DNA from: Bolinopsis microptera
Taxonomy: Eukaryota; Ctenophora; Tentaculata; Lobata; Bolinopsidae
Assembly (NCBI RefSeq): GCF_026151205.1
Contig: NC_087072.1
Span: 12,562,169 to 12,626,168, forward strand
Direction: 5' to 3'
DNA length: 64,000 bases
Positions 22,201-52,436 of this stretch are shown one piece after another. Under the pieces are notes generated by a model. That model did no database searches. It saw only the letters and a list, made by a program, of their open reading frames with translations, and was not told where the DNA came from. How positions within the stretch are numbered: the first letter of the stretch is position 1; every line of letters begins with the position of its first letter. A program made the position numbers and the translations under genes.

Positions 22201-25200
22201 CTCCATGGCTTCGTCTGAACGAGCTAAAGTTGAATATACTATCAAATTAGTATAATTAGTAATATATTAGTAATATATTAGTAATATATTAGTAATATTA
22301 ACAACACATGCACTGTCTGACAGGTATTACTAGATACGCACATTGTCACGATATGTTATACCGAAATTGTAGGTACGGTAACTAAGGGACCCGCTCATCG
22401 AATCCATGGAATTTCCCCCTGAGAATTACAGGCCATTTTTAGGAATGTTCTAAAGTTAACAACATAATAATACAGGGTGCTCCAGAAGTAACTGAACACA
22501 GGCAACCCCTTAAGGCCTTTAACAACTCTAAAGTTAACAACAATATATTGGTTGTCGAATTGTTAGAGTTTGCCTGTTTGTCAGTCTGGTATTAAGCATT
22601 TGTCTCTGTTTGATCGGTTCGTGTGTATTCAAGTCTGTCTGGGGAATGTTGAAGGTATCTTATAGTTGTGCCGTGTGTTAGTTTCCACGTACCAACATTA
22701 GTCAAAACAACAGATCTCTGAGTAGCGTAGAAGGGAACCTCTGGAGCCACTGTCAACGTCACCTTATCCAGACTTATTTTAGAAGAGCATCGCAGATTTA
22801 TCTGAAAATAACATTAATGTCACATTATCCAGACTTATTTTAGAAGAGCATCGCAGATTTATCTGAAAACTTATATGTAAGTCAGTTGCAATAAAAGAAT
22901 TGCGATGACCGGGAATCGAACCCGGATCCACTGCTTGGAAGGCAACGATGCTGACCATTACACCATCATCGCATGACCATCAATTGAATATTATGTTTAC
23001 TATTACAAAAAACTATGCCATCGATATGGGGACTTAGTATCGGCCTGACAGATTTGAAGGCAACGATTCCTACTTTTACAACATCATGACATGGATTGAA
23101 ATTAAAGTTTATACTTCCACTAAAAAATGCTCCATTGTCTAAGCATGGGGGGGGGGGGGGGGGGGGGGGGGGGCCAATGGCATAAAATGGCATAAAATGG
23201 AGACTTTTTCTATGGAGAAAATGGAAAAACCCATGAGTAATTCTCCATTTTCTCCATTTTATGCCATGAATTTAGTCTTCGAAATTTCATCTTTAACACC
23301 ATTTAACACCTAAATTGGACATCCTAACATGTTTATTTACGCTTACTAGGGGCGTAACAAGCTTATGAAAGCTCATAGTAGGCTACTAGATGCTTATACT
23401 AGGTTAGTAGAGGCACACTTCAGGCAAACTCATAATTACTCAAGCCTAGTGTTAAGTGTAAAGTTATTTCTACAGGCTACAGCAGGAGTGAGTAATAGGG
23501 GAGAGTAATAGGCACTGAGAAGTGAGACCTACATCCTCGACAGTCGAAACAAGCTCGCACTGCAAAGGGGAGGCCTGCCTTCCGAGATCGCATTACCAGG
23601 GGAAAGCCTAGAGTCCAAATTTGTGTATCGAGGGGTAGGTGCAGACTTCGATAAACCGAAAAACCAAAAAAATATTTTCGGCTTATAATGAAGAGGGTAG
23701 CATGAAACGTGGAGAAAAGTAGTTTTTAGAAAAACTTTGAAAAATTTTGACTTAGAAAATTTACGGCCCGAGTCATTCTCGATACGTACCTCTCGTATCG
23801 AGAGCTCCCGATTCCGAGCTCGTGTTGCAAAGGGGAGGCCTGCCTTCCGAGATCGCATTACCGTGGGGAAGCCTCGAGTCCAAAATTGTGTACCGAGGGG
23901 TAATTTTCTAAAACAACATTTTTCAAAGTTTTTCTGAAAAACACTTTTCTCCACGTTTCATGCTATTTTGTCATTATAAGCCGAAAATATTTTTTCGGTC
24001 AAAATTTTTCAAATTTTTTCTGAAAACCGCTTTTCTCCACGTTTCATGCTACTCTGTTCATTATTTGCCGAAAATATTTTTTCGGTTTTTCGAAGTCCAC
24101 ACCTTCCCCTCGATACACAATTTTGGACTAGAGGTAATGCGATCTCGGAAGGCAGGCCTCTCCTTTGCAACAGGAGCTCGGAATCGGGAGCTCTCGATAC
24201 GGGAGGTACGTATCGTTAATGACTCGGACCGAAACATTTTCTAAAGTCAACATTTTTAAAGTTTTTCTGAAACCATTTTCTCCCCTCTTTCATGATACTC
24301 TGTTCATTATTTGCCGAAAATATTTTTTCGGTTTTTCGAAGTCCACACCTTCCCCTCGATACACAATTTGGACTAGAGGTATGCGATCTCGGAAGGCAGG
24401 CCTCTCCTTGCAACAGGAGCTCGGAATCGGGAGCTCTCGATACGGGAGGTACGTATCGTTAATGACTCGGACCGAACATTTCTAAGTCACATTTTCAAAG
24501 TTTTCTGAAAACCACTTTTACTCTGTTTCATTATTGGCCGAAAATATCTTTTTTTAAATAATTTTTCTCGAAATTCTAAATTTTTCAGGTTTTCAATGGC
24601 ATAAAATGGCATAAAATGGCATAAAATGGAGACTATTTCTATGGAGAAAATGGAAAAACCTATGAGTAATTCTCCATTTTCTCCATTTATGCCATTGGCC
24701 CCCCCCCCCCCCCCCCCCCCCCCTAAGCATCGATTCGAATCCACACGATTGCAATTAAGACGATCGATAAAAGACTTGCGATGACCGGGAATCGAACCCG
24801 GATCCACTGCTTGGAAGGCAACGATGCTGACCATTACACCATCATCGCATGAGTAAAAATATTGAACATTTTGTGTCGATTAAGAAATATAAGCCACGTG
24901 TAAACTGCAATTATTATTTTTAGTGGATTAAGATATGTTTCGATAAAATATTAGAAAAATTTCATTTTTTATAAAAAATTTGATCTGACGGTGAAATCCA
25001 AGTTTGAAGTTGACAGTGGCATTTGAAAATGGGTCAGCTAGCTGCTTGGAAATCCGTCATGTTGACCATTTCACTACAAATACTCAAACACTACAATTAT
25101 CCTCACTTCAGATTGGTGCTAAAGAATCGTCCACAATGGTTGCAGCAATTCCAATTAGATTGACAAAAGAAAATTCCATTAACATACTTCAAAAAAAATT

Positions 25201-27930
25201 GTTTTGAATCTAGTCGAAACATTATGTACATGTATCATGCGATGATGGTGTAATGGTCAGCATCGTTGCCTTCCAAGCAGTGGATCCGGGTTCGATTCCC
25301 GGTCATCGCAAGTCTTTTATTGCTACCCAGGTAGGGTCAACACCTGGGTTAAACTCACAAATTTGCAAACCACTCTTATCGAAAAAGTTATTATGAGATG
25401 TTATCTCCACGAAAGCATAAGTTGCATAGTAGATTAAGCGGTTGTAGAGAACTTTGAGTTAAGAAATAAAGTCTACTGTACATCTAATTAAGATGCTTAC
25501 GAACCAGCCGGGTGAACATACATTACAAATATTTGAACAGATAATTCGGGAAGACAATTTAGCATATTATTTGCAATCAAGCTGATGAATGGTCAGTTTT
25601 ATAAAGCAAGACATGTCTGGATGTTGCAGCGCAGGTCAAATATTAGAACAAGTAATAACATTGTAATTTCTGAACAATGCTAAAAAGTAATAACAGCCCA
25701 TAACCGATACTATCATATGCACGAGAAAATACTCGGCTAAGGTTCTTATTATTTGGATTTCAAGTTCTTATTGCCTGCCCGGTTGAAACAAGAAATTAAT
25801 AGATTTAGAAGACAAACCCGCGAGTTCCAGACTAGAGATAGGCAGGCAACAACTTGATTTTCCCACACTGACCACTTCAGACGCGAACATTTAATTGTGA
25901 AAAAGGTAGCGCGCGTTACGCAAACTAAACGCATCAACATGGACCGGCCCAATCTGTTCCAGTATCTCGTGTTTTATTGACAACTTATATTTTGAAAACT
26001 AACCTTTACGGTTACAGTAGGGTATTCTGTGTCTGACTCCTCGTGTTTTACACCCACTATATCCAACCCATTGACGGGGTCTACAAATATGGAGAAGTCA
26101 GGCTGATCTGTAACCTTGGGAGCGTGCTCAATAGGTTTCGTGCAATCTCTAATTACTTGCTGTAATTTGGCCATTTCTTGATCTTTCTCCTGAATATTGG
26201 ATGAAATTAAATTACCGACATTAGGTGTAGGTACTTATGCAATGTAGGCACATTGAACAATACAAGTTGCAGAAACAAGAAAGATCTAGGAAAACAGAAA
26301 GATAACTCACATCGTAATTAATTTCTCTATTTTCAGCAGGAGTAGCTGTTTGTAAGGACGGGTCCGTTCCAAGATAAGACACGTATATTTTACCCGTCTC
26401 ATCTAACGTTACTATGTGTCCTCTCAGTTGTCTGAAACATCAGTATTACAGGAAACAAATACTCAAAGTAAGTTGTTCTTCAAGTCACTGTGGACGCACG
26501 CAATAACGTTCATGAAAGCGACCAAAACACAAATAAGGTTAGATCTGAGTTTACTCAGTAATAGCAACAGAAGTAAGAACCAGTACAAACCCGACACTAA
26601 GAACCCCAATAAAAACGGGGACATGTTGAAAAGAAGAGCTCCAAGCGAGAGTTGTATCCTGCCAAACGTAACAAGTACGACAGTAGTTAGCGACCAACAT
26701 ATTCACCGTACCCTCGCTCAGACTAGCGTACGGCGCGAAACAACTGGGGTTAAAATCAAACTTCTTCATGTATCTGATTACACCATTCTCGCGCAGAGCG
26801 AACAAGTTGTGCTCCCCCAGCACGAATATAGTTGTAGCATTGTCGTCAGCACAGTTAAATATCTTAACGTCCACCACGTTGTCCCCTATGTTAGTTTTCC
26901 AGTCAACTCTGAGCCGTTTACCGGCCCCTGTTTTTATCTGGTCCTTGCTCTCAGACTCAGTGCTGACGGCTAATGTCTGGTACCTATACGCCTCTACAAA
27001 GTTGGAGGAAGAGGAGGTTATGAAGGTGTCTGTTGAGGGAACATAACAGAGCGGACCCGGGATCAGAAACTGGGGGAGGAACCTGGCAAACGCGAAACTG
27101 TCTTGCTCGTAAAATGATAGCATGCCGTCCATTGATTGGACACATATGAAATCTTTATCTGAAATAAGATAATAGATGACTCACAGCTTGAAGATTAGAT
27201 ACATTTTATAAATTGAAAATTTGTGATAGATTCTTATCAGACTCGAAAAATTAAAATCTCATACAAAATCGGAAATCTTGATTTCAATGCCAAGAACTGT
27301 CCAACCGGGAAATAACAAAAAATCGATATAAAAACAAAATAATATACTTACTTTTAACACTGCCAAAACTACCAAGGCACATATTACACGCAGTCCTCTC
27401 CAACTTATGGGAGTAAACCTGACTAACGTTGTAAAAGGTGCCGGTATCTTTAGTGGTAGTATCCACACTCACACTACACACCACTACCTTACGAGGATGC
27501 AGTATAGCTAGGTACACTCCACTGTCCCCAACTAGTCGCCCAATGTCTACCCCTAAAATAGGGCTATCTGTCTGGTATTCTAACATCATGTCCTCGTGAT
27601 TCCCTCCTTTGGTTTGTGGACAGTAGATTCTTAGAATTCCTTGAAGCGAGCCAACTATTATCTTTTCTGAAATAAGGTCTTGTTATGATGCTGGCTTCCA
27701 GAGAGGTATTCTAGCTAATAATGTGTGCCAAATCGCACAGCATTTTTTAGAAGAATCTCAACCAGATTGCAATAAATATCCAAACATTAATGAAAAGAAA
27801 GATTTTAAACGTACTCACCTAATCCATCAGGACTGTTATCCACATTTCCGATGCAGATATTGCACGCATCATAATCCTCTCCAGCTCCCGCGTGCACGTA
27901 CCACCATTCCCGTGACTTGAACAGAGACAT
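13279..27930 (-). CDS. BBS9: BBS9/PTHB1, BBSome subunit (13 exons, 838 aa)
   Basis: Core subunit of the BBSome, the coat complex that carries membrane proteins into and out of cilia. Exons, in transcript order: 27819-27930, 27352-27666, 26591-27158, 26311-26431, 26004-26189, 22693-22801, 21826-22055, 18056-18203, 14975-15066, 14449-14685, 14023-14208, 13667-13745, 13279-13412. All have AG/GT borders, and the total of 2517 bases is in frame. Landmarks: MSLFKSREWW start; RTACNMCLGSFGSVK, CVQSMDGMLSF and SYLGTDPSL in the N-terminal beta-propeller; QKYRIQS; then FRAIQRRLLTRFKDKTPSPL in the helical C-terminal part; the end is KHIALLLERLNKGGTLSL. Human PTHB1 is 887 aa; the tail is shorter here, and AG|gtaa at the stop leaves a further exon possible. 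The second copies of the start codon, the exon 6 and 9 acceptors and the exon 8 donor are described separately. Confidence 0.95.
15067..15119 (-). repeat. Tandem duplicate of BBS9 exon 9 acceptor
   Basis: A 53 bp copy of ttttcag plus the first 46 exon bases (agaagtacaggatycagtct...), directly upstream of the real exon start. A second acceptor with exon start at 15119 is therefore available. Using it would insert 53 bases and shift the frame. Confidence 0.8.
15988..16231 (+). repeat. (GGAA)n microsatellite, about 60 units
   Basis: An uninterrupted tetranucleotide run of roughly 244 bases inside BBS9 intron 8. Open frames through it (Lys-Glu-Gly-Arg or Pro-Ser-Phe-Leu repeats) are artefacts of the repeat. 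Confidence 0.95.
16232..17756. other. BBS9 intron 8, no gene; includes a C17 tract
   Basis: A homopolymer of 17 C sits at 17644-17660. Two imperfect copies of a block containing gtttgaagctgc and ttttctcaaccaa lie at 17110-17140 and 17330-17365, an old duplication. Nothing coding was recognised. Confidence 0.5.
17757..18113 (-). repeat. Five tandem copies of the BBS9 exon 8 end plus splice donor
   Basis: A 71 bp unit in five nearly identical copies. On the minus strand each holds the last 50-odd bases of exon 8 (coding for CASGEIVTLLAAKNS), the donor CTC|GTGAGT and about 13 intron bases. The copy joined to the exon body (18056-18113) gives a product matching other BBS9 proteins (KNSQKYRIQS across the junction). 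The other four are intronic decoys with intact donors. Units differ only by one pyrimidine (ctctcc or ctcccc) and a small spacer change, so the expansion is recent. Confidence 0.9.
18864..18902. promoter_or_regulatory. Paired CACGTG palindromes
   Basis: GTTGTGCACGTGCACAAC at 18885-18902 is a perfect 18-base palindrome centred on an E-box CACGTG. A second copy of gttgtgcacgtgcac lies 21 bases upstream. They sit about 720 bases before the carboxylesterase start, so a bHLH-type regulatory role is possible but only inferred. Confidence 0.3.
19625..21331 (+). CDS. Secreted carboxylesterase, cholinesterase-like, intronless
   Basis: A 568-residue type-B carboxylesterase of the alpha/beta-hydrolase fold. 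It begins with a hydrophobic leader (MLIHLCALTVLAAEVYS), so is probably secreted. Visible blocks: oxyanion hole HGGA at 127-130, EDCLHLSV at 102-109, nucleophile elbow GESSGG with Ser218, a likely acid Glu358 in NTAQEVGY, and catalytic His478 in ETIHGWDTEALFGYGW. The triad therefore looks intact. Length is usual for the family. The substrate cannot be told: the acyl pocket and choline-binding positions were not assigned. The gene is unspliced and lies inside BBS9 intron 7 on the opposite strand. A polyadenylation signal AATAAA lies at 21571-21576. It is more GC-rich than its flanks. Confidence 0.92.
   Translation: MLIHLCALTVLAAEVYSEVTVDLDCGKVRGTRNETQVGDVLEFHQIPYGVPPVGARRWTHSILLEPGETGQCWEEEVYNAASPQDPPIKCVQYWSGSVKGQEDCLHLSVRTPTLDPSSPLPVLVWIHGGAFWSGWSDDKGYAPTANFTADLNVITVNINYRLDLMGFFSTPEIWNDPENPGNYGNFGIGDAITALKWVRTNIAQFGGDPEAVTVLGESSGGTIVLGLLVADQADGLFRTAIALSAPAKWVSTYQDAYERRRSFVSDVGCNQSSEAERRQCLREMDVESLIKHVDLNRGWGFYDFPLAAGLQGESVDYNVLEPTLIKVSPTELGRRKNTANKRERVKPVKVILSNTAQEVGYNSLYYGLNLVDTWEKASSLLSDRLMKLEKETGFRVRDGLQSAIEERYNFGVTEEGKWWPQLYFDTLVTDIRTTCITNDLTEDLNNNPLYEARRMYVKSRPDEIKRTNSILLPYETIHGWDTEALFGYGWFKLNSSNLRHQRKFEENLRDLVHYLCYEKEIEAWNQDSTLVFENEDFPNAVKVVREWPQIQECRFWERKEMLEWGWQN
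21571..21576 (+). terminator. AATAAA polyadenylation signal of the carboxylesterase
   Basis: First canonical hexamer after the stop codon, 240 bases downstream, in AT-rich sequence. Confidence 0.5.
22802..22866 (-). repeat. Tandem duplicate of BBS9 exon 6 acceptor
   Basis: The polypyrimidine end, ttttcag and the first 45 exon bases (ataaatctgcgatgctcttc...) recur with 61-base spacing. There are thus two complete acceptors, with exon starts at 22801 and 22862. The inner one keeps the reading frame. The copies differ at one or two bases. Confidence 0.85.
22901..22972 (-). tRNA. tRNA-Gly(TCC), copy 1
   Basis: 72 nt reading gcgatgatggtgtaatggtc on the minus strand. Acceptor stem GCGATGA pairs with TCATCGC. 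The anticodon loop is CTTCCAA (anticodon TCC), the T arm CCGGGTTCGATTCCCGG, and the discriminator A. A TTTT follows in the 3' trailer, as a polymerase III stop. It lies in BBS9 intron 5. Confidence 0.95.
23050..23093 (-). pseudogene. Decayed tRNA-Gly fragment
   Basis: gatttgaaggcaacgattcc and the following ttacaacatcat parallel the anticodon-to-acceptor half of the intact neighbours (cttggaaggcaacgatgctg, ttacaccatcat), with several substitutions. The T arm is lost. Confidence 0.6.
23147..24723. mobile_element. Element with G27/C25 ends and 8 bp target duplication
   Basis: The left end is 27 G followed by CCAATGGCATAAAATGG. The right end is its inverse, finishing in 25 C. CTAAGCAT flanks both sides (23139-23146 and 24723-24730), an 8 bp target duplication if one C is shared with the tract. 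Terminal inverted repeats run about 100 bases with alternating ccattttctccat motifs. Inside, a block with ggaggcctgccttccgagat occurs four times, twice in each orientation, making the element largely palindromic. No transposase. It sits between tRNA-Gly genes in BBS9 intron 5. Confidence 0.75.
24777..24848 (-). tRNA. tRNA-Gly(TCC), copy 2
   Basis: Identical over all 72 nt to the copies at 22901 and 25239. Anticodon TCC. The 3' trailer aagtcttttat is shared with copy 3, so the duplication unit included flanking sequence. Confidence 0.95.
25038..25080 (-). pseudogene. Decayed tRNA-Gly fragment
   Basis: gctgcttggaaatccgtcat followed by gttgaccatttcact parallels ctgcttggaaggcaacgatg and ctgaccattacacc of the intact genes. 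The acceptor and T arms are not preserved. Confidence 0.6.
25239..25310 (+). tRNA. tRNA-Gly(TCC), copy 3
   Basis: Same 72 nt on the plus strand; anticodon TCC at 25272-25274. TTTT follows eight bases after the discriminator. The opposite orientation to copies 1 and 2 indicates an inversion or inverted duplication within the cluster. Confidence 0.95.
25311..26003. other. BBS9 intron 5 remainder, no gene seen
   Basis: Moderately AT-rich; no repeat or coding pattern recognised. Confidence 0.5.
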
Positions 27931-49105: not shown

Positions 49106-49463
49106 GCGCTATAACAAATAATATAATTACTGTGGACTTAGCTTTACAGAGTTGTTCAATCACAAAACCAACACGATTTTAACTAAATTATGGAATGAAT
49201 TCAACCATGCCCAAAATTGCAGCAGTAACATAAAACTGACAATTCTGAGCACGCCATGCAGTGTATTGTTTAAATCGAGCGCTGTAATAATTTTTGTCTT
49301 CACTTCCAACTAGTCAATGCCCAGAGTGCACAGTGTTGGAAAGATTGGCCATTTTTGATCACAGTATAATCTAGGTTGACTTCTAATTGAATGTATGTGG
49401 TATATAATTAAAATATCAATGGCTATTAATCCATAAATTAATGTTTGTAGTTATTATACATTT

Positions 49464-49628
49464 ATCACATGCCTTCTCATGCGATATCAAAACTTTCGCC
49501 CACGAGGCTTGCCGAGTTAGCGAAAGTTTCGATATTTCCCGAGGCTTGCCGAGGGTTATATCGACATTTTCAATCACGAGGCTTGCCGAGTTTTGAAAAT
49601 GTTGATATCGCATGAGAAGGCATGTGAT
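49464..49628. repeat. Perfect four-arm DNA cloverleaf
   Basis: The outer stem is 27 bp, exact: 49464-49490 (starts atcacatgccttctcatgcg) with 49602-49628. Enclosed without spare bases are three hairpins: stem aactttcgc (49491-49499 with 49520-49528), stem tcgatat (49529-49535 with 49558-49564) and stem acattttcaa (49564-49573 with 49593-49602). Each loop carries the same CGAGGCTTGCCGAG. Inner stem sequences are unrelated to one another yet fully paired. Confidence 0.9.
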
Positions 49629-49644
49629 TAATGTTTTATCACAC

Positions 49645-51150
49645 TTTCTTTGGAGCCAAATTTGGCCGGGAAAGCAGAATTTGATCAAACGTTAGTTATA
49701 AATCTCACCAAAGCAAAACTAGACATGTCTAACTTATTTATGTTTATAATGTCCAAGCTATATATAGCTCTCGATAAGTTAGTATTTCAGATATTAAAGA
49801 TACAATACGTCAAAATTAGAATCTCGCGTTTCACATTTATGACACAGTGAATGCTGTGTGCCGCGCTGAATTTGCTTTGTACTGCTACCTAGTGCATGCG
49901 ATATTAATGTGTTTTCCGCCTATGGGTCTTGTACTTATGAGTCTAGAATATTCCGCCGCGAGCGCATTTGATACGTAATTACATCCTGCAAATCAATCGA
50001 TGTGAGGTGATTCTAATACTTTATTTCTATTAGATATTTTTAGAGTCATTAAAACTGTAGATGTATAATGTATAGAACATCCGTTTAAGTGTTGATTATA
50101 CATCACAGTCCTTATCGTATAATCTGTATCTGCGATAAGGTGAAAGAATTTCCTGGTTGTTAAATTTGAATAGTATAGAGCTGTGGCGCCATGATTGTCT
50201 ATTTATCAGTCCACATTATACACTGCACACCCTAATTTACATCAACAATATTATCGTCCGTCTTGATTCTTGATTGTCTGTTATTTCAGAATGATTTAAT
50301 CAATGCAACTTGTAATCGTTGACTTAGAATTTTATCAAGTATTCTGCTTAGTTCTTAGTCAGTATACATCTTTACTTGCCATATTTGCCATTATTTGCCA
50401 TTATTTGGAGCCATATTTGGCCTGGAAAGCAGAATTTGATCAAACGTTAGTTATAAATCTCACCAAAGCAAAACTAGACATGTCGAACTTATTTATGTTT
50501 ATAATGTCCAAGCTATTTATAGCTCTCGATAAGTTAGTATTTCAGATATTAAAGATACAATACGTGAAATTAGAATCTCGCGTTTCACATTTATGACACA
50601 GTGAATGCTGTGTGCCGCGCTGAATTTGCTTTGTACTGCTACCTAGTGCATGCGATATTAATGTGTTTTCCGCCTATGGGTCTTGTACTTATGAGTCTAG
50701 AATATTCCGCGCGAGCGCGTTTGATACGTAATTACATCCTGCAAATCAATCGATGTGAGGTGATTCTAATACTTTATTTCTATTAGATATTTTTAGAGTC
50801 ATTAAAACTGTAGATGTATAATGTATAGAACATCCGTTTAAGTGTTGATTATACATCACAGTCCTTATCGTATAATCTGTATCTGCGATGGGGTGAAAGA
50901 ATTTCCTAGTTCTTGTATTTGAATAGAGCTGTGGGGTCATAATTAGTGTCTATTTATCAGTCCACATTATACACTACACTCCCTAATTTACATCAACAAT
51001 ATTATCGTCCGTCTTGATTCTTGATTGTCTGTTATTTCAGAATGATTTAATGCAACTTGTTATCGTTGACTTAGAATTTTATCGAGTATTCTGCTTAGTT
51101 CTTAGTCAGTATCCATCTTTACTTGCCATTATTTGCCATTATCTGCTTCG
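49645..51150 (+). repeat. Two direct copies of a 755 bp unit
   Basis: The unit starting tttggagccaaatttggcc (49650) recurs from about 50405 (tttggagccatatttggcc) with few differences, including aaagcagaatttgatcaaac, ctcgataagttagtatttca and ttgattcttgattgtctg blocks in the same order. The second copy ends near 51145 at ttgccattatctgc. The start of the unit also appears inverted at about 52360-52390 (ctgctttcctgccaaatttg), so the pair may be internal to a larger inverted-repeat element from about 49460 to 52395. Confidence 0.8.
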
Positions 51151-52436
51151 AGCTAGAAATTATCTGAACTGGAAATTATCAGAACATTTGTAATATTCAA
51201 ATGTATCTCTTCAACATTTTAGAACGCAGTACTCCACCAGCCTATAACCACCCTGGTGACTGGTCATGGCCATGGCCAGGTAGTTCACCCGTACTGTTAC
51301 CAATATTGAATTGTCTAAAGAATGGCAGCACATTAATCATCGGACCTGTTTGCCCCAGTGCCCAGACTAATTTATAACCAGATTAGCTGATTAAGTTACG
51401 TCATTCGTCCCTTGATATATTTATATAGATAATATATTTTATAGGATGTTTTTATTGCACTTATTTGCACTAACTAAAATTCAGTTAAAACTAGTCCTGG
51501 GATAGAATTTTCGCTCTTTATTGTACAGAATCTATAAGTCTCTTTATCAGTCTGTTTATAGATCAGCCACGAATTTCGCAAGCTAATCTAGGCGAAACCG
51601 GTTTGGAAAATGGAAAAGCCAAGTATAATTTCTGCACAATTTCTATATGGAATATGGCTCAAAGAAGGGATCAGAGGGGGTTAAAATTCAGGTCTGAAAT
51701 GGCTGAAATCTGGCTTTGTTTTGTGTGTTTTCTTCCTTCGAATAGATCAAACATCGTTTCTGTGTCTACTACTTTTTGTGAGGGTGACTGTAGTTTGTTC
51801 TGACACTTCCTTTTTAATTTCAAGTAAGCGATTAAGGAAATTAATAAGCCTGATTGATTGTATCGCTGACAAGTACCAAAACGTTGTGCAACTTTCAAGT
51901 CTGCTTGTAAACTTTGATCTCGTTTTCAGTAACCTTAAGTCGCTTGAAACTCGTACAAACCAGGAAGTTTTTACTTTGTTTCATCATCCGAAGCCTAATT
52001 AGGTTTTGAACTATGAAGTGCAGTAAAAAAGCAACAGCTTGAAAAAGTTTTACAACAAAAAATTGTATTTTGCTTAACACATCTCAAACGCAAGGAAATG
52101 TTTTTAAACCAAGGTATAAATATATATTTTTCCTAAATCTGGAAAGTTTATCTGATCATTGCATTTACGGTCATAGACTACTTCAGGTTATTGATTTAAA
52201 TCTTTATTTAAATCAGTACCTCACAGTAGTAGAACAGTTGTTGAGAGTGGGCTCCTTGTTCCTATGGGAATATCGGACTCTCTCTGAGCAACTGATTGAT
52301 ATTTCATGCCCCCGGGTGAGAGCCAGTGCTCCCTATCGGGGCATGTAATATCAATTCTGCTTTCCTGCCAAATTTGGCTCGAAAGTGTGATAATATTATA
52401 TATTTTATGTTTTTAAAGGTTTGATTTTATATAGGG
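51151..52436. other. Repeat-rich region, no gene
   Basis: Ends with a hairpin at about 52286-52358 (gatatttcatgcccc paired with ggggcatgtaatatc around a gagagccagtgctccc loop), then an inverse copy of the start of the 755 bp unit. No credible coding exon. Confidence 0.45.

Follow-up and report, generated by a model that had tools for sequence, protein, structure and literature searches.

The cloverleaf at positions 49464-49628 of the window (the whole stretch of 64,000 nucleotides that was analysed) is not a free-standing structure but forms one end of a repeat of 2,939 bp (49455-52393). We propose, with a probability of about 0.75, that this repeat is a rolling-circle transposon, non-autonomous and of the Helentron/Helitron2 type (HINE), and that the cloverleaf, as the fold at its 3' end, works there as a terminator. 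The identification of the cloverleaf as a Helentron-like 3' end, considered by itself, is highly probable. The type of element is already known, and its terminal structure was not found described in the literature searched.

Fold of the cloverleaf

The folding of 49464-49628 with DNA parameters gives a four-arm structure with a minimum free energy of -52.3 kcal/mol (z -11.8), and none of 200 dinucleotide shuffles was as good. With RNA parameters the same stretch yields -89.6 (z -14.2), and the minus strand forms the same arms at -61.1 (z -10.6), again with 0 of 200 shuffles as good in each case. The original prediction of a four-arm fold with three abutting hairpins is borne out by these values, and the stem lengths that it gave (27, 9, 7 and 10 bp) are those of the computed fold (Table 1) with the junction slid by one pair. 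The junction contains no unpaired base in the minimum-energy fold, and one pair is open in the RNA centroid. Beyond a mismatch between T49463 and T49629, the outer stem resumes with five additional pairs (49458-49462/49630-49634). In hairpin 2, the minimum-energy fold displays an additional CCC/GGG pairing (49538-49540/49553-49555). When the hairpins were folded singly with DNA parameters, hairpins 1 and 3 beat their shuffles (z -3.3 each) and hairpin 2 was weak (z -1.5).

All three loops contain CGAGGCTTGCCGAG, as predicted. These three occurrences in the window are placed at an exact spacing of 37 bp (the shuffle mean is 0.06 occurrences), and no other one was detected in the window at up to two mismatches. 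An A/T pair closes the tip in hairpins 1 and 3, whereas hairpin 2 has CC/GG at this place. The so-called loop is itself able to pair, as GGC-TT-GCC is flanked by CGAG opposite CGAG, which we take to be a tandem sheared G.A arrangement.

At least two CGAGGCTTGCCGAG spaced by 32-40 bp were also detected, as tandem repeats, in 13 bacterial genome stretches (L130-L142). An open frame runs across the short stretch in 12 of the 13, and none has this cloverleaf. The paired pattern is above chance by a rough estimate and possibly results from the duplication of a stable hairpin. Being tandem repeats, mostly in open frames and without cloverleaf, these bacterial sequences were judged unrelated to the element.

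Table 1. Coordinates in the window of the element, its cloverleaf and its repeats
Feature	Position	Strand	Remarks
Whole element	49455-52393	minus	2,939 bp without coding capacity; by the Helentron layout, 52393 is the 5' end and 49455 the 3' end, with the cloverleaf
Cloverleaf with the 5-bp extension past the T/T mismatch	49458-49634	minus	between the 3' subterminal repeat and the terminus
Outer stem	49464-49489 (arm 1) / 49603-49628 (arm 2)		26 bp, minimum-energy fold
Hairpin 1	49490-49529		stem 49490-49499/49520-49529, 10 bp; tip CGAGGCTTGCCGAG at 49503-49516
Hairpin 2	49530-49563		stem 49530-49535/49558-49563, 6 bp; tip at 49540-49553
Hairpin 3	49564-49602		stem 49564-49573/49593-49602, 10 bp; tip at 49577-49590
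3' subterminal inverted repeat	49636-49665	minus	plus strand reads TTATCACACTTTCTTTGGAGCCAAATTTGG; matches the right end in inverted orientation
Central direct repeat, copy 1	49646-50398		about 750 bp
Central direct repeat, copy 2	50401-51145		about 750 bp
5' subterminal hairpin	52296-52354		adjoins the 5' repeat; DNA fold of 52200-52393, minus strand, z -5.5
5' terminal inverted repeat	52368-52393	minus	plus strand reads CCAAATTTGGCTCGAAAGTGTGATAA

The element that carries the cloverleaf

The host genome (265 Mb in 232 contigs) contains CGAGGCTTGCCGAG 219 times, and the reversed control word was not found. Allowing one mismatch, the word of hairpin 2 was retrieved at 74 places and its control at none, and the aligned copies show a sharp common left boundary with a sequence that continues rightwards. 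At the other side, the right end of the element at 52393 carries an inverted copy of 49636-49681. The motif TTATCACACTTTC is exact in both subterminal inverted repeats and is followed, after a short gap, by GAGCCAAATTTGG. With at most three mismatches, the 3' subterminal repeat was recovered at 82 places of the genome and the 5' terminal repeat at 78 places (controls 0).

Among the 76 left ends, 64 were paired with a right end of the same strand within 40 kb. The distance between the two ends is 1.6 to 7.4 kb in 62 of the 64 pairings, with clusters near 2.17, 2.36, 2.92-2.95 and 3.3-3.4 kb. About 60 of these pairings are safe, as one extends over 20.8 kb and in two a further copy lies between the paired ends; the left end at C8:690980, paired at 629 bp, was placed by hand. 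Twelve left ends and 16 of the 78 right ends have no partner. The boundaries of the element were set from 64 distinct left flanks, 30 distinct right flanks, the empty sites of four insertions in arrays and this pairing of ends.

No open reading frame of at least 100 amino acids is present in 49455-52393 (the longest has 97 amino acids). The inverted repeats are offset, at 181 bp from the terminus on the cloverleaf side and at 0 nt from the 5' end 52393. Given the layout of HINEs, where the inner repeat is offset and the palindrome lies outside it, the minus strand is taken as the sense of the element, which places the cloverleaf at the 3' end. The sequence TTGATAT..CATG is common to the 5' subterminal hairpin and to the cloverleaf's outer stem. 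A relationship between the two ends, or a pairing of one with the other, is thus conceivable.

Some features were observed around the copies. An inverted repeat (48562-48660/52429-52535, 82% over 107 bp) flanks the element of the window at a distance, and the element is thus probably inserted inside an older repeat with inverted ends. A sequence related to this flanking repeat was also seen beside the copy L031 and, by eye, beside L109. Three copies (L021-L023) are in tandem near a contig end (C8:30636-40509), two of them preceded by a 10-bp repeat resembling GTGATATTGC. The element is surrounded in the window by carboxylesterase, ELM2/Myb and PX/PXA genes and by reverse transcriptases, a gene content compatible with an animal genome. 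At 22900-25311, the window also contains three tRNA-Gly (TCC) genes of equal score, one of them on the plus strand and the other two on the minus strand.

The genome contains 41 matches to Helitron_like_N, several with long open frames. No autonomous partner was detected when 38 of these 41 positions were compared with the tested ends, the nearest end lying 28.5 kb away. At C11:3834408-3857170, three Helitron_like_N genes with open frames of 1,759 amino acids follow each other at 10-12 kb and are perhaps tandem autonomous Helitrons. In one other Helentron family of this genome, of which two copies were compared, the 3' end differs and contains at most a weak hairpin, no better than shuffles. 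An end of this kind, without a strong fold, indicates that the cloverleaf is no general requirement.

Conservation of the cloverleaf end

Of the 74 places with the hairpin-2 word, 73 were examined. Identities were counted on 70 loci, leaving out the window's own locus L009 and L035, which overlaps L036, and this count covers 62 copies with at least 225 nt of end and adjoining body; nine loci lacked a long end with adjoining body. The cloverleaf end (49455-49690, 236 bp) has a mean identity of 99.67% to the window, 36 of the 62 copies being identical and none below 95%. For the adjoining 250 bp (49691-49940) the mean is 90.1%; four of the 62 copies are identical, 43 are below 95% and the lowest value is 78.3%. 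In an alignment of 30 copies chosen for their match to the cloverleaf end (window included), no column varies in the first 200 bp, and the bodies form seven clusters at 95% identity. The mean identity of the other (5') end is about 98.5% over 200 bp in 30 loci, also chosen for their match.

Judged from these alignments, the cloverleaf end is the most uniform part of the element, and it is borne by clearly differing bodies (up to 22%). This would result either from a modular exchange of the end among elements or from an extreme constraint on it. Since the unpaired bases are unchanged too, recent spread or exchange is favoured.

The original prediction had called for a test of compensatory changes between copies. 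We counted 20 substitutions at paired positions in the non-identical long copies. Two of them form the sole compensatory pair (49471/49621, in L102), and the others break or weaken pairs. This result gives no support for selection on the pairing. With 36 of the 62 copies identical, the variation is too scarce for the test to be informative, and the few changes are mostly pair-breaking; covariation was consequently dropped as a proof of selection on the fold. The alternative of three chance insertions of one small hairpin element, also raised beforehand, is unsupported, the long copies sharing one layout.

The same data bear on a possible function as a structured RNA, in which the cloverleaf would act as a transcript and the DNA copies would be its genes or retro-copies. 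The very strong RNA fold (z -14.2) and the identity of 36 of 62 other copies over 236 bp are in agreement with this. However, no Rfam family matches the cloverleaf at the gathering threshold, the Rfam matches of the window being only the three tRNA-Gly. The limits of the fold coincide with the transposon terminus and with the subterminal repeat, 64 of the 76 left ends are paired with the other end of the element, and substitutions are almost never compensated. We consider an RNA function very improbable.

Rearranged copies

Some copies depart from the common layout. In L073, the complement of arm 2 and of a part of hairpin 3 (49614-49584) has taken the place of arm 1, and the sequence resumes at 49501. 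The inner block is inverted relative to the outer stem in L079 and L120, two copies that are rearranged or shortened, and a part of hairpin 2 is missing in L117 and L119. These five copies look like products of template switching along a single strand in its folded state; ordinary palindrome instability could be an alternative source. The inner block is rearranged in a different manner in L111, L112 and L114, with one exact and one changed tip. These three copies share their flank with L001, which points to one older insertion that was duplicated. The deviant copies L001 and L110-L114 were not taken as independent families, as the left flank is, by eye, common to all six. The breakpoints of the rearranged copies fall at hairpin tips in 4 cases of 11, about the share expected for tip bases, and were set aside as evidence.

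Two other explanations for the shape of the end have to be weighed against these copies. In the first, the cloverleaf is a by-product: palindromes would grow at a rolling-circle end by template switching, a simple hairpin function would suffice, and the three tips would be remnants of hairpin duplications. The existence of rearrangements templated by the fold (L073, L079, L120), the partial loss of hairpin 2 (L117, L119) and the differently rearranged inner blocks with one exact and one changed tip (L111, L112, L114) speak for such an origin. Nevertheless, the hairpins differ in their stems and not in their tips, a pattern that is not given by plain duplication followed by drift, and the exact cloverleaf, with no simpler form, is found on seven body types among the 30 end-matched copies. 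We regard this origin as doubtful, but it keeps an appreciable weight.

In the second explanation, the cloverleaf is a hairpin telomere, parvovirus-like or other, whose end is replicated by hairpin transfer. The palindromic end with internal palindromes and the inverted inner block of L079 and L120 resemble what is expected there. Hairpin transfer in parvoviruses produces both orientations about equally often. In the present case, 62 long copies besides the window are in one orientation, and the search on both strands retrieved the inverted one, among the copies examined, only in L079 and L120. This near absence of inverted copies, the two being moreover rearranged or shortened, argues against a parvovirus-like hairpin transfer. 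The element also lacks coding sequence and its other end folds differently. Among the viral contigs searched, none contained two tandem CGAGGCTTGCCGAG loops or the exact other end. A hairpin telomere is, of all the readings discussed here, the one to which we give the least credit.

Insertion sites and junctions

In the 64 distinct left flanks, positions -4 to -1 are occupied by A (56/64), T (61/64), A (63/64) and T (53/64). In 30 distinct right flanks, drawn from the best-scoring right ends, T is found at +1 in all sequences, A at +2 in 29, T at +8 in 29 and A at +9 in 26. From these 64 left and 30 right flanks, the target consensus is ATAN^TA-N5-TAT, which is not palindromic.

For four insertions the host sequence is a tandem array, whose intact units show what the site was before insertion. 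Exact empty sites were obtained for these four minisatellite insertions on C9 (L019/L067), C10 (L098/L044), C6 (L084/L048) and C3 (L077/L046), the last being a head-to-tail dimer; three were identified by script and the one on C6 by eye from the flanks. In each array the left flank joined to the right flank restores an unbroken repeat unit, with nothing lost or duplicated. In two further array insertions (L024/L043 and L097/L045) the fit is less strict, being judged by eye or limited on one side to some 20 bases, and the left flanks of L022/L023, L095 and L103 are likewise repeated. For L094 (right flank L143), inserted beside an array, no empty site was found, the right flank being non-array and beginning with CA instead of TA. 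This copy (C8:11404928-11408302), whose left flank is a short tandem repeat, is possibly an imprecise or rearranged insertion.

The minisatellites that contain L019/L067, L084/L048, L098/L044, L077/L046, L097/L045 and L103 have a unit that bears the target site. The presence of copies in such arrays may reflect an insertion preference or a growth of the array after insertion.

Two head-to-tail junctions were detected in which the ends are joined directly, GTGTGATAA being followed by TATACATTTATC (L055/L076 and L056/L059/L070). Read on the minus strand, the 5' junction (TA^TTAT), the 3' junction (TATA^NTAT) and the target (TA^NTAT) are of one form, as would be expected if a single nuclease cuts all three. 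In the orientation assigned to the element, the insertion falls between A and A of the host (T^A by sliding), which corresponds to T^T on the plus strand. The mapping of target-site duplications, suggested in the original prediction, revealed none. A duplication of TA is formally possible, since the 2-bp ambiguity (TA) at the junctions means that a cut-and-paste TA duplication would give identical junction sequences.

One alternative is a MITE of the Tc1/mariner kind, moved by cut-and-paste and duplicating its TA target, with a cloverleaf that would be an elaborate terminal inverted repeat bound as a duplex. The right flanks begin with TA in 29 cases of 30, the junctions can be parsed as TA duplications, and on this parse even the two tandem copies with joined ends might be separate insertions with a TA in common. 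On the other hand, the inverted repeats are not at both termini (181 bp on one side and 0 on the other), the target ATAN^TA-N5-TAT is long and non-palindromic, and the ends are common to elements of varied size, mostly 1.6 to 7.4 kb. We consider a MITE of this type improbable, and the Helentron-like assignment is retained in what follows.

A proposed three-tip terminator

In the bat element Helraiser, the 3' hairpin is described as a stop signal, and its removal leaves a corrected value of 8.8% of transposition (PMC4778049). In the experiments reported there, an altered loop costs about as much activity as the loss of the whole hairpin, and about 90% of transposition is kept when the stem is replaced and the loop preserved (PMC4778049).

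Applied to the present element, a comparable process would begin with a Rep/helicase, supplied in trans, which would nick the 5' end at 52393, and the displaced strand would be peeled off toward 49455. The emerging single-stranded 3' end would then fold into the cloverleaf, as its computed fold suggests. This structure would stall the helicase and present three copies of one tip, which the Rep or the helicase would read as a stop. The strand would be cut 3 nt past the foot of the outer stem, where the sequence has the form TA^NTAT (minus strand) as in the 5' junction and the target. Finally, after joining of its ends, the element would enter ATAT^TA between the two T and leave no duplication, in the manner recorded by the empty sites and the joined junctions.

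Three unrelated stems with one tip are what would be expected from selection on the tip and on pairing, and not on the sequence of the stem. The presence of one tip on three different stems suggests that the tip is what is read, the stems needing only to pair. By analogy with Helraiser, we lean slightly towards the cloverleaf being a three-tip rolling-circle terminator, whose tip would be read by a protein. It is possible, as a tentative extension to which we give less than even odds, that the cloverleaf is a multivalent terminator, whose interchangeable stems and single tip sequence on a four-way junction would allow a much tighter termination than the lone hairpin of known Helitrons; the 236-bp end would have spread as a module over at least seven diverged bodies, terminators of this class being exchangeable from one element to another. 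The original prediction had invoked a folding-based mechanism. It is supported as regards a single-stranded transposon substrate, with the fold at the end of a Helentron-like element; the rare compensatory changes give no support for selection on the pairing.

How often a Helitron-like transposon runs on and takes host DNA with it depends on the way in which its 3' end is recognized. The reading of the tip and not of the stem has been seen for one reconstructed element, Helraiser, and a natural end with three tips is a ready-made test of it. In addition, a near-invariant end on bodies that differ by up to 22% makes the exchange of ends between rolling-circle elements testable.

Comparison with known systems

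The AAV-type terminal repeat of parvoviruses consists of an outer palindrome with two internal arms that form a multi-arm junction, and both orientations are equally frequent. The cloverleaf has in common with it an outer palindrome, internal palindromes and a multi-arm junction at a DNA end. It differs by being found almost only in one orientation and in a transposon, whereas the AAV-type repeat has two internal arms and belongs to a viral genome.

Canonical Helitrons are recognized by a 5'-TC, a 3'-CTRR, a hairpin about 11 nt from the end and an A^T target. Unlike them, the present element has the ends TTATCAC and GTATA, and A^A or T^T (T^A by sliding) at the insertion site.

The closest likeness concerns HINEs, including DINE-1. 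These are described with offset subterminal inverted repeats, a 3' palindrome, central tandem repeats, no coding sequence and no target duplication (PMC4067079, PMC7492417). The repeats, at both ends, measure 12-15 bp in the HINEs and Helentrons treated in these sources (PMC4067079, PMC7492417). The element shares subterminal inverted repeats that are offset at the 3' side and partly palindromic (CCAAATTTGG), central tandem repeats and the absence of coding sequence. A palindrome occupies the corresponding place at its 3' side, outside the inner repeat, and its insertion site has a TT on the plus strand with no apparent duplication. In contrast to a hairpin of 5-10 bp, its 3' palindrome is a four-arm cloverleaf of 165-177 nt, and the extended target ATAN^TA-N5-TAT is another difference. 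For the HINEs of mites, the 3' repeat is placed 38-60 bp from the 3' end, the 5' repeat 2-4 nt from the 5' end, and the palindrome, with a stem of 5-10 bp, 8-35 bp from the end (PMC4067079). Here, the inner repeat is at 181 bp, the 5' repeat at 0 nt and the palindrome at 3 nt, with a stem of 26 bp or more. Helentrons insert at T^T without target duplication (PMC4067079, PMC7492417), whereas the host dinucleotide is here A^A (T^A by sliding) in the assigned orientation.

No Helitron or Helentron end with a cloverleaf was found described in the literature searched, where CGAGGCTTGCCGAG occurs on neither strand. The original statement that no named element has this layout therefore stands for the cloverleaf in this literature and falls for the type of element, which is most likely Helentron-like.

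The Helitron2 elements of Fusarium (FoHeli) have asymmetric terminal inverted repeats, end hairpins (FoHeli1 and 2) and joined ends (PMC5148889). With them the element shares the asymmetric terminal inverted repeats, the hairpins at both ends, the joined ends and a target with T and A. The FoHeli hairpins, however, are ordinary and short, copies with Rep/helicase are known, and the terminal sequences are others. Joined ends and circles are also known in other Helitrons (PMC5148889, PMC4778049). As for Helraiser, a canonical Helitron, its 19-bp palindrome and its 5'-TC and CTAG-3' ends are absent here, but the two elements have joined copies or circles and a 3' hairpin structure in common, and in Helraiser the loop is needed and the stem is exchangeable.
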